This document shows positions 41,716 through 48,164 of a DNA stretch of 64,000 nt, piece by piece. The translations under genes and the position numbers were made by a program. The notes under the pieces were generated by a model that did not search any database, was not told the DNA's origin, and saw only the letters and a list, made by a program, of their open reading frames with translations. The stretch's first letter is position 1, and each line of letters begins with the position of its first letter. This DNA comes from Akkermansiaceae bacterium (GTDB lineage: Bacteria > Verrucomicrobiota > Verrucomicrobiia > Verrucomicrobiales > Akkermansiaceae), in the NCBI GenBank assembly GCA_905181965.1, contig CAJIZY010000002.1, positions 124,001 through 188,000 on the forward strand. The letters are read 5' to 3'.

Positions 41716-41862
41716 AGACGCAGAATACGCTCGCAACCTAGCTTGATCGATCATCAAACCTGCCCCCTCCATCGCGGACGTCGGCGATCAACCACTGTAT
41801 CAAGTCACTTCCCAATGAGAACCCTTGTAAAACTCGTCAAATCAACCAAATTAGAAGCCCGT

Positions 41863-44800
41863 ATGATTTTGAAAATCTTCCTGAGTGTCCTTCTCTGCGC
41901 TCCGCTACTTGCCTGCCCCAATGATGAAAAGACTCCCAAGATTGAAGGCACCGCCAATCCAGAAAAATTTCCGGCCCCGGATCCAGACGAAGCACTTCTC
42001 GCCACTATCCAATACCCAGAAGAAATGACAGCTCGCGTCTATGCACGTGAACCAGATGCTCTCAACGTAACCGCCATCGCCTTTGACGAAAAAAATCGGC
42101 TCTACCTTTCTGAAACCCATCGCTTCGATCGCGGCATCGAGGACAACCGTCGCAACCAACATTGGCTTCGCGACGATATTGCGCTCACTTCCACTTCGGA
42201 GCGACTCGCAATGTATCGAAAGCACGAGGGAGTCAAACCGCTTTCCTACTACACCGAACACTCTGATAAGATTCGTGTGCTTGTTGACGAAGACGCTGAT
42301 GGTAAATTGGACAAATCCCAAATCTTCGCGGACGGCTTTAACGATCCTCTTGACGGCACGGCCGCCGGCATCTTCGCGGCAAACGGCAAGGTCTACTTCG
42401 CATGCATCCCGCATGTCTGGATGATTGAAGATAACGACAGCGACTTGAAAGCCGACAAACCCACGAAAGTGCAAGAAGGCTACGGTATTAGCGTCAGCCT
42501 CAGTGGCCACGACCTCAATGGTTTTTCCTTTGGGCCAGACGGCCGTATCTACTTCACAATCGGCGACCGCGGATACAACCTCAAAACCTCCGACGGACGC
42601 CACCTTTACGACCAATATGCTGGAGCGATCTTTCGCATGGAACCCGACGGCAGCGGGCTGGAAGTCGTTCATTCCGGCCTACGAAACCCAAAAGAAATTG
42701 CTTTTGATCAATACGGTTCAGGATTCTCGGTCGATAACAACGCTGATATGGGTGACAAAGCCCGCCTTATTTACATGGTCGAAGGCGGCGATTCCGGCTG
42801 GCACCGCGGGAATCAAAACCTCCGTAATTTTCGCCACGCCATTGACGTCAGTAACCGTCACCAAATCCCGTGGATGGTCGAAAGCGGATGGGATCTCAAA
42901 GGTGAAAACCGCCCTGCCTCATTTCTTCCTCCCATCACCCACCTAAGTATTGGACCCTCCGGGCTCACTTATAATCCGGGAACTGGCCTCGCTGAAAAGT
43001 GGGATGAGCACTTTTTCATCTGCGACTACTGTGGCGGGCGAAGCAGCGTGATTGGCTTCAAAGTATCGCCTTCTGGAGCCTCCTTCTCAGTCACTAATAA
43101 CGAAACCTTCATTAAAGGATTCCTCAATACTGACATGGAGTTCGGCTACGATGGACGTGTTTATGTGAGCGATTTCACTGGCAGCTGGCGCACCTATGAC
43201 AAAGGCACTATCTTCGTCTTCGAAAACCCAGAAGAGCTTGCCAAGCCAATCATATCTGAGATTCGCTCACTTTTTGCTAACGGGTTTGAAAAACTCCCTC
43301 CCAAGAAGCTTTCCGAGCTCCTCAAGCACACGGATCACCGTGTCAGACAACGCGCTCAATTCGCTCTCGCAAAAAATAATGGGAATCGCGACCTTCTGGC
43401 GGAAGCAGCAGCCCCTACAAACGACCTTTTTACGCGTCTTCATGGACTTTGGGGGCTCGGTCAACTCGCCCGCCTCCAAAAGGACAAGGAATCTCAAATC
43501 CTCCTGAATGATTTTTGCTCCGATAAAAATTGGCGAATTCGAGGACAGGCTGCGCAAGCACTCGGACAGTCGAATCCCAAACCATTCCGAGCTACCCTGG
43601 CCGATCTCCTTACAGACAAGAATCTTAACACCCGAATGCACGCCGCCATTGCACTCGGAAAATCCGGAAACGTAAGCGACATTCCTGCTCTCGTTTCTGT
43701 TCTTCATGAGAACAAAAACAGCGATCCCTACCTGCACCATGGTGCTGTTTACGGACTCGAACTTATCGCTAAAAATACCAACTCTGCCTCGACAATTATC
43801 TCATTAAAAGATCATCCATCGACCGCAGTTCGCCGCGGAGCTATCATGATTCTCCGCCGACTCAAGCACGCAGGCATTGCCTCTTTCCTCAATGACTCAG
43901 ATCCGACCATAGCCATCGAAGCGATCCAGGCCATTAATGATAATTATATTGAAGAAGCCCGTCCTGCTCTTGCTCGTTCCACGCAATGGCTCGGCAAGTC
44001 CACCCCGATGATTGACTACCGCATCATCAATGCCATTTTCCGCGTCGGAGGATATAATAACCTTGACCGTATTCTCAAAATAGCGAGTGATAAAAATCGC
44101 CCTGACAAGCTCCGCATGGAGGCTCTCTTTGCCCTGCAGCGCTGGGAAAACCCACCCGCAGCCGACCCTACTACGGGCAAACATCGCCCACTCTCTAACG
44201 ATCGTTCGCTTGAAGACCACAAAGACACCATCGCGACCGCCTTAAATCGACTTCTTAAAAAATCGACTGACCAGCTCTTAGCCGAAGTCATCCGCACCAC
44301 CGAAAGTTTCGAGATTGCGATTGAGGCGAACACCTTACTAGCACACTTCGCCAATCCCAAGAATGATCCTGTCATCCGTCTAGCGGCTCTCGAAAATTTA
44401 CAAAACTCAAAGAACGCCCTACTCGCTTCGACAATTGCCAAAACTCTCAACGATCCCGATCAGGAGATCCGTGTTCGCAGTCTCGATGCCTTAGCTCGAA
44501 TCGCTCCAAAAGCGGCAGCAGCCCAAGCTCAGAAAATCCTCTTATCGAACAAAATCTTCGATCTTCAAAGGGCTTTCGCCACTCTCGGAGGACTTAAGAA
44601 CAAAGAAGCCACCCAATTTATCCTCACGTCTTTACAGACCATCTCCGCACAACCAGCCGCTGTGCATCTAGACATCATCGAGGCTGCCAAAAGACAAGAT
44701 GACGCCAAAATCGCCGCAGCTCTTGTCGCTTACCAAGCCGGAGTAGATCAATCTAATCCACTTGCCACCCACGCGGTCACACTTAAAGGGGGTGATATTA

Positions 44801-45237
44801 ATCAAGGCCGCTTCGTTTTTTACAATCATGGGGCCGCGCAATGCACCCGTTGCCACAAAGGCCAACGGGGCCGCAAAGGTGGTATTGCCGGCCCTGATCT
44901 GTGGAACGTTGGCAGTCTCCATGGACGGGATTATCTTCTAGAATCGCTGGTGAAACCTAACGCTCATATTGCGCCGGGTTACGGAATGGTTTCAGTCACC
45001 TTAAAGGACAATACTATCGCAGCTGGAAATCTTCATAAGGAGGATTCCAAAAAGGTCATCATCGCTGACATAACGACCGGAGAGAAGACATCCTATGCTC
45101 GGGAAGAAATAGAAGAGATGACGCGACCCGCTTCCACTATGCTTCCAATGTCTGGCATTCTCAAAAAATCAGAGATCCGCGACCTCATCGCCTACCTCAT
45201 GCACCCCACGGATACTAAAAAGAAGCAGAAAAAATAG
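41863..45237 (+). CDS. PVC-type heme-binding dehydrogenase (sorbosone-dehydrogenase-like propeller, HEAT repeats, cytochrome c domain)
   Basis: 1124 residues. ATG at 41863 gives a lipoprotein-type signal (MILKIFLSVLLCAPLLACPN); longer in-frame starts would bury it. Domains: glucose/sorbosone-dehydrogenase-like propeller (about 35-460; LYLSETHRFDRG, FGPDGRIYFTIGDRG, GLRNPKEIAFDQYG, VYVSDFTGSW), HEAT-like repeats (about 490-930; LADLLTDKNLNTRMHAAIAL) and a C-terminal cytochrome c domain with heme motif CTRCH near residue 993 and the distal Met region. The family is abundant in planctomycetes and verrucomicrobia and is thought to oxidise sugars in the periplasm, but substrates are undefined. Confidence 0.9.
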   Translation: MILKIFLSVLLCAPLLACPNDEKTPKIEGTANPEKFPAPDPDEALLATIQYPEEMTARVYAREPDALNVTAIAFDEKNRLYLSETHRFDRGIEDNRRNQHWLRDDIALTSTSERLAMYRKHEGVKPLSYYTEHSDKIRVLVDEDADGKLDKSQIFADGFNDPLDGTAAGIFAANGKVYFACIPHVWMIEDNDSDLKADKPTKVQEGYGISVSLSGHDLNGFSFGPDGRIYFTIGDRGYNLKTSDGRHLYDQYAGAIFRMEPDGSGLEVVHSGLRNPKEIAFDQYGSGFSVDNNADMGDKARLIYMVEGGDSGWHRGNQNLRNFRHAIDVSNRHQIPWMVESGWDLKGENRPASFLPPITHLSIGPSGLTYNPGTGLAEKWDEHFFICDYCGGRSSVIGFKVSPSGASFSVTNNETFIKGFLNTDMEFGYDGRVYVSDFTGSWRTYDKGTIFVFENPEELAKPIISEIRSLFANGFEKLPPKKLSELLKHTDHRVRQRAQFALAKNNGNRDLLAEAAAPTNDLFTRLHGLWGLGQLARLQKDKESQILLNDFCSDKNWRIRGQAAQALGQSNPKPFRATLADLLTDKNLNTRMHAAIALGKSGNVSDIPALVSVLHENKNSDPYLHHGAVYGLELIAKNTNSASTIISLKDHPSTAVRRGAIMILRRLKHAGIASFLNDSDPTIAIEAIQAINDNYIEEARPALARSTQWLGKSTPMIDYRIINAIFRVGGYNNLDRILKIASDKNRPDKLRMEALFALQRWENPPAADPTTGKHRPLSNDRSLEDHKDTIATALNRLLKKSTDQLLAEVIRTTESFEIAIEANTLLAHFANPKNDPVIRLAALENLQNSKNALLASTIAKTLNDPDQEIRVRSLDALARIAPKAAAAQAQKILLSNKIFDLQRAFATLGGLKNKEATQFILTSLQTISAQPAAVHLDIIEAAKRQDDAKIAAALVAYQAGVDQSNPLATHAVTLKGGDINQGRFVFYNHGAAQCTRCHKGQRGRKGGIAGPDLWNVGSLHGRDYLLESLVKPNAHIAPGYGMVSVTLKDNTIAAGNLHKEDSKKVIIADITTGEKTSYAREEIEEMTRPASTMLPMSGILKKSEIRDLIAYLMHPTDTKKKQKK

Positions 45238-45526: not shown

Positions 45527-45739
45527 CTAAAAAAGTGCACTCGCCTCTCCGGGAAGTGGAAAGTGTCCGCTTCTTTCCTTCTTCCAAATCACCTTGCTAT
45601 CTTGGCGAATTTCAAAAATCCCGCCACTTCCACCTACCAAAATTACTTTTTGACCAGTAATCTTTTCAATCTCAGCCGACACACGATCGGCTTCGGGACG
45701 GTAATTTCATTGTTCGCAATATTCAATTTCGATCGCCAT
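45527..45739 (-). CDS. SelW/Rdx-family thioredoxin-like protein, candidate selenoprotein with in-frame UGA (CxxU)
   Basis: ATG at 45739 to TAG at 45527-45529 gives 70 residues with one internal TGA at 45707-45709 (codon 11). The protein begins MAIEIEYCEQ, then TGA, then NYRPEADRVSAEIE, followed by VILVGGSGGIFEIRQDSKVI and SGHFPLPGE. This is the full Rdx pattern: beta-strand, Cys-x-x-(Cys/Sec), the NYRP-type helix start, the GSGGIFE motif and the G-x-FP-x-x-GE end. The TGA falls exactly at the second redox position, where SelW, SelT and SelH carry selenocysteine. A small hairpin at 45674-45692 lies 14 nt after the UGA, as expected for a bacterial SECIS. The alternative is a TGC/TGT to TGA mutation or base error in a Cys homologue; no frameshift is needed. 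Presumed role: glutathione- or thioredoxin-linked redox protein. Confidence 0.72.
45674..45692 (-). promoter_or_regulatory. SECIS-like hairpin after the in-frame UGA
   Basis: On the minus-strand RNA, AGCCGAU (45692-45686) pairs with GUCGGCU (45680-45674), 7 bp including one U-G wobble, around the loop CGUGU. The stem starts 14 nt and the loop 21 nt after the UGA. Bacterial SECIS elements are short hairpins in this distance range with a G in the first two loop positions, which is met here. The wobble pair exists only in the minus-strand RNA. Confidence 0.55.
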
Positions 45740-46153: not shown

Positions 46154-46675
46154 CTAGCTAAAAAACTTCATCGCCAGCTTGATCGCCTTACCGTGTTGCA
46201 TCGAAGCAACGCGATCACCCATTCGAGAAGCAAAGCTCACGAAATCTTCGAGCTGATCCATCTGCTCATGAAAAGCTCTCCCTTCAGGCGATTTCATACC
46301 TTCAGAAGCAGCCTTACAGTTTCGTAAAGTCTCGAGAGCCGGCTCAATCTCTCGCCGTTTCCGCTCTCGCGCGACCCGCCTAAAGATTTCCCACACATCT
46401 TTCTCCGCTTCGAAGAACTCTTTCCGCTCGCCTTTCTTAGTGACGATCCGGATCAGCCCCCAGCTGACGAGATCCTTTAAGTTCGTATGAGCGTTTCCCC
46501 TGCTAATCTCGAGAGTTTCCATAACCTCGTCAGTACTCATCACGTCTGGAGCAGTCATCAAAAGGGCATGGATTTGAGCCATTGTCCGGTTGATGCCCCA
46601 CTGTGCCCCCATTATTCCCCATTGGGTCACGAACTCGTCACGTGCTTCTCCCAGGCTGACACCCTCATCGATCAT
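46154..46675 (-). CDS. GbsR/MarR-family transcriptional regulator
   Basis: 173 residues. A winged-helix DNA-binding region (INRTMAQIHALLMTAPDVMS, TDEVMETLEISRGNAHTNLK as helix-turn-helix, LIRIVTKKGERKEFFEAE as wing) is followed by a long helical C-terminus, the GbsR arrangement (about 170-180 residues). Bacillus GbsR senses choline; the effector here is unknown. A palindromic CAGTA-TT-TACTG lies 8-19 bp upstream of the ATG within a 26-bp element repeated beyond the 3' end, suggesting autoregulation. It is downstream of pgk on the same strand, 152 bp away. Confidence 0.87.
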   Translation of the reverse strand: MIDEGVSLGEARDEFVTQWGIMGAQWGINRTMAQIHALLMTAPDVMSTDEVMETLEISRGNAHTNLKDLVSWGLIRIVTKKGERKEFFEAEKDVWEIFRRVARERKRREIEPALETLRNCKAASEGMKSPEGRAFHEQMDQLEDFVSFASRMGDRVASMQHGKAIKLAMKFFS

Positions 46676-46827: not shown

Positions 46828-48027
46828 TTAAGCGTCCGTCAAGGCAGCCACTCCAGGAAGAGTCTTTCCTTCAAGGAGTTCAAGACTCGCCCCACCACCG
46901 GTAGAAATAAAGCTCATCTTGTCAGCAACGCCGAACTTCACCGCGGCAGTCACAGAATCACCTCCTCCAACGATACTAAGAGCTCCGCTTTCCACAACAG
47001 CCTCGGCAATCTCTCTTGTGCCTTTTGCAAAGCAGTCCTTTTCAAAAACCCCCATTGGCCCATTCCACAAAACCGTCTTAGCCGTCAGCAGGACTTCCTT
47101 AAATTCAGCAATCGCGACGTCGCCGATATCGATACCTTCCTTGTCGGCCGGAATTGCTCCGCCTTCCCCATAAACTTGAGTATTCCAAGTCTCAGCGCCT
47201 TCCTTGAACTCCTTGGTGATACGCGTATCTGCTGGGAGAAGAAATTTCACTCCTTTTCCCTTGGCTTTTTTCAGGATCTCAAGAGCCAACTCCTGCTTGT
47301 CATTTTCGACCAAGCTCATTCCAACTTCGTAACCTTGCGCCTTCCGGAAAGTGTAGGCCATAGCGCCACCAATCAGGATCGTATCAGCTTTTTCAAGAAG
47401 CGCGGAAATCACCTCAATCTTATCACTCACTTTCGCACCCCCCATAATCACGACAAAAGGGCTTTCAGCGTTAGCGAGTTTACCCTCAAGATACTCAAGC
47501 TCACGCTCGATGAGTAATCCCATAGCGCTTCTAGAAACGTGATGCGTTACGCCCTCGGTGGAAGCGTGGCCTCGATGAGCGGTTCCAAAAGCATCATTCA
47601 CAAAAATCTCTGCGTTTCCGGCGAGAGACTTGGCGAACTCAGCATCGTTTTTCTTCTCCTCGCTGTAGTAACGAGTATTTTCCAAAAGAAGAATTTCTCC
47701 ATCCTTCAGTTGCGCGCGAAGAGCTGAAGTGTCATCTCCGATACAATCATCCGCAAAAATAACATCCTGCTCCAACAACTCGCAAAGTCGGGCCGCTACT
47801 GGTTCTAACGAATACTTCTTCTCCCTAGCTTCAGTCGGCCGCCCCATGTGAGAACAAAGGACCAGACGAGCTCCGTTAGAAACAAGCTGTTTGATAGTCG
47901 GAAGAGCCGCCTGAATACGGGTGTCATCCGTGATTTCGAGGGTATCATTGGTGGGAACATTAAAATCGGCACGCATCAAGACTTCCTGACCGGCGACGTC
48001 GATATCACGAATGGTGAGTTTACTCAT
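46828..48027 (-). CDS. pgk: Phosphoglycerate kinase
   Basis: Glycolytic transfer of phosphate between 1,3-bisphosphoglycerate and ADP in the cytoplasm. 399 residues from ATG at 48027 (MSKLTIRDIDVAGQEVLMRADFN). Family motifs: RADFNVPTND, VLCSHMGRP, VNDAFGTAHRGHAST, FVVIMGGAKVSDK, MAYTFRKAQG, VLWNGPMGVFE and the C-terminal SIVGGGDSVTAA. Length is normal. Divergent from the nucleotidyltransferase gene at 48165. Confidence 0.96.
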   Translation of the reverse strand: MSKLTIRDIDVAGQEVLMRADFNVPTNDTLEITDDTRIQAALPTIKQLVSNGARLVLCSHMGRPTEAREKKYSLEPVAARLCELLEQDVIFADDCIGDDTSALRAQLKDGEILLLENTRYYSEEKKNDAEFAKSLAGNAEIFVNDAFGTAHRGHASTEGVTHHVSRSAMGLLIERELEYLEGKLANAESPFVVIMGGAKVSDKIEVISALLEKADTILIGGAMAYTFRKAQGYEVGMSLVENDKQELALEILKKAKGKGVKFLLPADTRITKEFKEGAETWNTQVYGEGGAIPADKEGIDIGDVAIAEFKEVLLTAKTVLWNGPMGVFEKDCFAKGTREIAEAVVESGALSIVGGGDSVTAAVKFGVADKMSFISTGGGASLELLEGKTLPGVAALTDA

Positions 48028-48164
48028 AATTAGCTGGGTTTTTGGTGCCGCAGACACGGCTTTCTGTCAAGATTTCCCCGGTTTTCACAATTCTGCCCCG
48101 AGAAGCACGCACCTTCCTTGCGCCTTGTCATTCAAGGGTTCTTTGCTCATTCTCCTTAAAACTC

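Follow-up and report, generated by a model that had tools for sequence, protein, structure and literature searches.

The window, by which we mean the whole 64,000-nucleotide stretch of Akkermansiaceae DNA analysed here, lies on contig C2 of a 2.64 Mb assembly of 24 contigs that is 61.6% complete (G000). At 45527-45739 its minus strand carries a frame of 70 codons running from an ATG to a TAG, with a single in-frame TGA at codon 11 and no frameshift. This gene, its parts and its upstream neighbours are as follows.

45527..45739, minus strand: predicted SelW/Rdx-family selenoprotein gene, 70 codons with the TGA read as selenocysteine (Sec) and TAG as stop (translation, Pfam, homologues)
45716..45718, minus strand: TGC codon for Cys8, which opens the CxxU redox motif; UxxU relatives have TGA here
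45707..45709, minus strand: TGA codon of the predicted Sec11, second residue of the CxxU motif (translation and homologues)
45674..45692, minus strand: putative bacterial SECIS hairpin with a 7-bp stem and a 5-nt loop, the loop starting 21 nt after the UGA (MFE, covariation)
45681..45685, minus strand: apical loop CGUGU, with a G at 45684 in 76 of 76 aligned TGA-type sequences
46154..46675, minus strand: neighbour upstream of the SelW gene, with a weak match of MarR/HTH type (MarR_2, 4e-5, below the cut-off)
46828..48057, minus strand: second upstream neighbour, presumably a phosphoglycerate kinase gene (order kept in loci L051-L056)

The first-pass annotation had described this strand as a full 70-residue Rdx protein broken only by one TGA at the second redox position, with no frameshift and with plainly coding sequence beyond the TGA, and all of these points are borne out. 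The product reads MAIEIEYCEQ, then the TGA, then NYRPEADRVSAEIEKITGQKVILVGGSGGIFEIRQDSKVIWKKERSGHFPLPGEASALF up to the final stop, so that the TGA falls in a CxxU motif near the N terminus (Y-C-E-Q-UGA), and the frame downstream of it is conserved among homologues. The product matches Pfam Rdx (PF10262) with an E value of 1e-15 (58.1 bits for a cut-off of 22.6) and passes NCBIfam TIGR02174, CXXU_selWTH (45.6 for a cut-off of 34.2). Nearly the whole of a further model, NF041051 (SelTWH_Campy, SelT/SelW/SelH family (seleno)protein), is matched at 3.8e-20, but as the score of 71.9 bits lies below the equivalog cut-off of 88 bits the gene is not filed under it. A profile of its relatives retrieves the SelW-related crystal structures 2fa8 (4.7e-23), 3dex, 2ojl, 2oka, 2p0g and 2obk, and mouse SelW (2npb) at 5.7e-4. 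An AlphaFold model built from the alignment (pLDDT 86.5) superposes on 2fa8 with a query TM of 0.89 and an rmsd of 1.2, and on mouse SelW with a TM of 0.67. The model thus predicts a thioredoxin-like Rdx fold. The nearest folds, 2fa8, 2oka and 2obk, are presumably of the cysteine type YCTQC-WLLR, which shares the fold at 28-37% identity in the best structural matches.

The order of the SelW gene, the MarR-like gene and the gene at 46828..48057 is kept in 6 of 33 named TGA-type loci tested, these being the six closest (L051-L056); several of the other 27 end early at contig ends. On the other side the SelW gene adjoins a plus-strand gene (41743-45237) whose large product combines DUF7133 and HEAT repeats with a cytochrome c domain at the C terminus. 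A crude hairpin scan of in-frame TGAs gave 22 hits in the window including the SelW gene, and six read-through frames, covering 8 of the 21 other hits, yielded no second selenoprotein when compared with Pfam. One of them matched CoaE and was rejected, as the match starts 3′ of the TGA and does not span it.

Conservation was assessed in 97 genomes comprising the window's own genome and genomes of its genus, family and order. Homologues were present in 40 of them, and in 21 of the 27 of the same genus. Aligned at codon 11, all 40 carry TGA: 36 have a single TGA, three have two, and one is decayed. The same TGA occurs in a separate assembly (G025) whose protein is 97% identical. Decay at this locus was looked for as well, and TGA is the only stop in the matched part of 39 of the 40 homologues, one of these 39 (G045) being truncated at a contig end. 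The decayed copy (L141), in a genome of another family (G068), contains TAG and TAA stops, and that genome still has selA. The gene and selA co-occur strictly: selA scores over the cut-off in 53 of the 97 genomes, among them all 40 with the SelW gene; 13 have selA without the gene, and none of the 44 lacking a selA match has it (Fisher p=2.9e-16 over 97 genomes, kinship ignored).

Among named genomes, whose records are partly the same assemblies as among the 97, 52 loci were matched, 35 with TGA and 17 with TGC or TGT at this codon. The closest is that of Akkermansiaceae bacterium UBA1518 (97%). The 35 TGA loci come from Verrucomicrobiota, Gammaproteobacteria including Pseudomonadales, one organism labelled only 'Proteobacteria', a deltaproteobacterium and a KSB1 bacterium. 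All 17 cysteine loci belong to a different, WLLR-type family in which the motif is followed by W-L/M-L-R; they have Cys at both positions and another sequence 3′ of the motif, and all 18 Cys-type rows (the 17 named loci and one from the genome set) form one separate branch of the tree with support 100. Cys-type (CRWLLR) Rdx genes also occur in three genomes that possess the UGA form (L193 in G049, L194 in G037, L195 in G291), and the W-type is therefore a paralogue. Every Cys locus examined was of the W-type save L210, which reads R-F-V-L-R and is also not NY-type. A cysteine form of the NY-type protein was found neither among the 17 Cys loci and L193-L195 nor among 20 stop-free matches of a phylum search.

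The first-pass annotation had named selA, selB, selD and a tRNA-Sec as the machinery to be sought in the host genome. The three protein genes are there, each over its curated cut-off: selA on contig C9 (486 bits), selB on C11 (310 bits) and selD on C22 (385 bits). A search of the assembly, which is 61.6% complete, brought up no tRNA-Sec. The selD gene has an in-frame TGA of its own (SCGG-TGA-ASKLG; L049 1501-2427, corresponding to C22 7204-8130), so that the genome would hold at least two selenoprotein genes. Seven tRNA-Sec hits below the Rfam cut-off in G000 were typed by ARAGORN as Ser, Gly, Asp, Ser, Cys, Glu and Leu tRNAs, and around selA, selB and selD the same program reported only a tRNA-Glu, near selA. 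A search of G000 with the 5.6 kb surrounding the tRNA-Sec of a genus-mate gave no match, a result that on its own shows little. This region is partly kept between genus-mates (91% over 4779 nt for G025 and G017; 83% over 2640 nt plus 162 nt at the tRNA for G025 and G022), and we therefore take its absence from G000 to reflect an incomplete assembly.

Across the genus, a threshold of E<=1e-7 yields a tRNA-Sec match for 20 of the 27 genomes. ARAGORN reports tRNA-Sec with anticodon TCA in G025, G017 and G022, and in 29 of 30 relatives' loci taken from the best tRNA-Sec matches. Seven genomes, G000 and six others, gave no match at that threshold among the best 39 of at most about 1,200 candidates scored. 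A second, laxer search of these seven, scoring the best 150 of at most about 1,200 candidates, gave a sole match, in G021, which proved to be a tRNA-Ser and was rejected. Because only these best candidates were scored, a tRNA-Sec may have been missed. Five genomes (G000, G008, G014, G021 and G026) thus have the SelW gene and selA and no tRNA-Sec found by these searches. For G026 and G021, which are 97% and 93% complete, missing assembly is a less easy excuse; they could be accounted for by a gap, by divergence of the tRNA-Sec or by its falling outside the candidates scored. That the searches also failed to find the tRNA in the nearly complete G026 slightly lowers our confidence in Sec decoding.

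Downstream of the UGA the mRNA reads GCCGAU-CGUGU-GUCGGC and folds into a hairpin of 7 bp with an MFE of -10.8 kcal/mol. Bacterial SECIS elements are described as having a loop of 3-9 nt, a stem of 4-16 bp, a G in loop positions 1-2, a spacing of 16-37 nt and an MFE <= -7.5 (PMC13188914). The hairpin lies within all of these bounds, its 5-nt loop having G as second nucleotide and starting at 21 nt. Covariation was examined in 76 distinct 48-nt segments; they were selected for TGA, and its presence in all 76 rows is by construction. Five loci of family f3 (L133, L137, L139, L140 and the decayed L141) escaped the motif filter and are absent from this alignment; all have the TGA, four form five of the six pairs scored, and L141 forms three. 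Of the 456 cells, 94.7% are paired as the six-pair stem requires, the outermost pair failing in 16 of the 76 segments, and RNAalifold finds the five inner pairs unprompted. Relative to shuffled alignments, 65 cells are changed on both sides of a pair against 17.2 in shuffles (none of 500 reaching this number), and covariation scores 0.479, against 0.147 in shuffles and at most 0.126 in slid versions. The number of pairs changed on both sides, four of six, is not unusual, being reached by 103 of 500 shuffles.

Such a hairpin could be a mere by-product of selection on the peptide it encodes (NYRPEADRVSAEI) and have no SECIS function. In favour of this, conservation extends to the peptide 3′ of the UGA, folding of the single sequence beats shuffles by a modest margin only (z -1.95; 8 of 200 did as well), and all 18 Cys homologues share the loop G, with Trp as the encoded residue, which makes its invariance weak evidence when taken alone. 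Against this explanation stand the excess of compensatory changes and the fact that segments encoding other residues (ASLA, VSLA, SRLEA) still keep most of the stem. Synonymous codon choice, moreover, is frozen mainly in the hairpin: Arg is CGT in 48 of 54 cases, Val is GTG in 45 of 52 and Asp is GAC in 38 of 43, with normalised entropies of 0.22, 0.35 and 0.52, respectively, for 0.66-1.00 in columns outside codons 7-10 after the UGA. We consider a by-product very unlikely, and the putative SECIS hairpin is the strongest new evidence for the Sec reading beyond the first-pass annotation. Two main hairpin designs are apparent in columns 25-29 of the 76-row alignment, a CGUGU loop with DRVSA-like residues and an A-GUU-U arrangement with ASLA or VSLA, and the protein sequence switches together with the RNA design.

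The remaining readings of the TGA concern the codon itself. Were the code altered genome-wide so that UGA specifies a standard amino acid, or were the codon read through unspecifically, residue 11 would not be Sec. The tRNA-Sec missing from the G000 assembly would suit this, but TGA terminates 11 of the window's 37 open frames (>=200 codons, overlaps <30%); it is thus an ordinary stop for them, which excludes a genome-wide change of code. The presence of selA, selB and selD, the hairpin 3′ of this UGA and the six other read-through frames, none with a Pfam match spanning its TGA, also speak against it, and we regard it as extremely unlikely. More remote still is a pseudogene, in which a nonsense mutation inactivated an Rdx gene of the Cys type. 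TGC and TGT are each one change away from TGA, and the multi-stop copy in G068 shows that decay does occur. A dead gene, however, is hard to reconcile with TGA at this codon in every one of the 40 homologues and in 35 of the 52 named loci across several phyla, with a downstream frame intact in all but one of the 40, with the covarying hairpin, or with the co-occurrence with selA. Most remote of all is a sequencing or assembly error that turned TGC or TGT into TGA, since the same TGA would have had to arise in all the homologues among the 97 assemblies.

We conclude that UGA codon 11 of this Rdx/SelW gene is very probably decoded as selenocysteine. Its earlier designation as a candidate selenoprotein gene is strengthened by the selA, selB and selD genes, by the TGA shared by all homologues and by the covarying hairpin. 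By analogy with established bacterial Sec biology, SelD would make selenophosphate, SelA would convert seryl-tRNA-Sec to Sec-tRNA, and SelB would bind the hairpin (bSECIS) and bring the Sec-tRNA to the ribosome at the UGA; judged from sequence, this recruitment of SelB by the hairpin is the most likely route of decoding. In the product, as in other members of the family, Sec11 would attack as the selenol and Cys8 would resolve as the thiol in a SelW-type CxxU redox centre. A reversible selenenylsulfide would form in thiol/selenol exchange, with glutathione or thioredoxin probably serving as reductant.

Some relatives carry a second UGA. Searches of the order and of family f2 gave matches in 73 of 386 and 22 of 74 genomes, respectively, and 14 Verrucomicrobiales genomes have a SelW homologue with two TGAs nine bases apart, both in the redox motif (L135, L136, L138, L151, L152, L159, L162, L163, L165, L177, L178, L179, L180 and L182). 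The motif is UGMU in 11 of the 14 distinct sequences and USKU, UGQU or UGVU in the rest. Twelve of these genomes belong to family f2 and two (G046, G357) to the window's own family, f1. In one of them, G186, two contigs carry equal-score matches to the UxxU SelW (L180 and L181), through duplication or assembly redundancy. All 14 sequences have one hairpin, in which five or all six of the stem pairs form and an extra pair closes a GUU loop. Counting on the alignment puts the second UGA 22 nt and the first UGA 31 nt ahead of this loop, and both spacings fall in the published range of 16-37 nt. When 387 genomes spread evenly over the phylum were sampled, 28 gave a match, in no case a two-TGA form, so that the UxxU form is seen in the order Verrucomicrobiales only.

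The UxxU sequences group with three CxxU sequences on the tree (17 rows, support 84). At least four changes are needed to place them on this tree, which rests on 70 columns with few forks resolved (7 of 92 starred) and is also compatible with a single origin. As UxxU occurs in two families, intermixed with CxxU, the step from Cys to Sec may have occurred, or been reversed, more than once. Judging from these sequences, it is probable that SelW moved from CxxU to UxxU within the Verrucomicrobiales, both UGAs being read as Sec under one hairpin to give a diselenide redox centre; the CxxU form would in this scenario be represented by the gene in the window.

The gene adds to the known SelW-like selenoprotein family and is no new kind of protein. 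It shares with the prokaryotic SelW-like (SELENOW-like) family the PF10262 domain, the CxxU motif with one Sec and the hairpin directly 3′ of the UGA, and differs in its host, an uncultured Akkermansiaceae-type verrucomicrobium. The literature searched was open-licence and included PMC13188914, PMC2398784, PMC1088965, PMC1794560, PMC9312934, PMC9402790, PMC4807772, PMC7539508, PMC3281104 and PMC12341817. As the first-pass annotation had stated, SelW-like selenoproteins are known from marine bacteria; published work ranks the CxxU type as the most abundant family of marine selenoproteins. Nor had the annotation known of a described case in this lineage: the portions searched contain no Sec-containing verrucomicrobial protein, which for open-licence sources is weak evidence of absence, and the string 'verrucomicrob' is absent from the six selenoproteome papers searched for it. 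According to the available passages, the gut member Akkermansia muciniphila is predicted to make no selenoproteins (2025, PMC12341817), and SELO homologues occur in Verrucomicrobia, Sec being present in only a few SELO members, including those of Metazoa and a few small eukaryotes (PMC3281104).

The bacterial UxxU variant is the part likely to be new to specialists. A UxxU SELENOW has been published for amphioxus and the alga Ostreococcus lucimarinus (PMC7539508, in the part available); like it, the relatives described here have two Sec codons in the SelW motif, but they are bacterial and their hairpin lies inside the reading frame, and the window's gene is itself CxxU. As far as their accessible text goes, a 2026 review gives the prokaryotic SelW-like protein only as CxxU with one Sec (PMC13188914), and the motif is no different in a review of 2022. 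Open-licence searches on two UGA codons in this context and on NCBIfam/PGAP found nothing.

The locus illustrates how a functional gene can be hidden by the ordinary stop-codon rule, and it provides a clear selenoprotein gene in a group of bacteria that has no Sec-containing protein in the literature searched. The frozen codons, together with the choice between DRVSA and ASLA 3′ of the motif, suggest that the RNA element shapes the protein sequence. With CxxU and UxxU forms sharing one hairpin design, the clade is a compact natural series, and offers a way to ask how one SECIS serves two UGAs and what a diselenide buys SelW.
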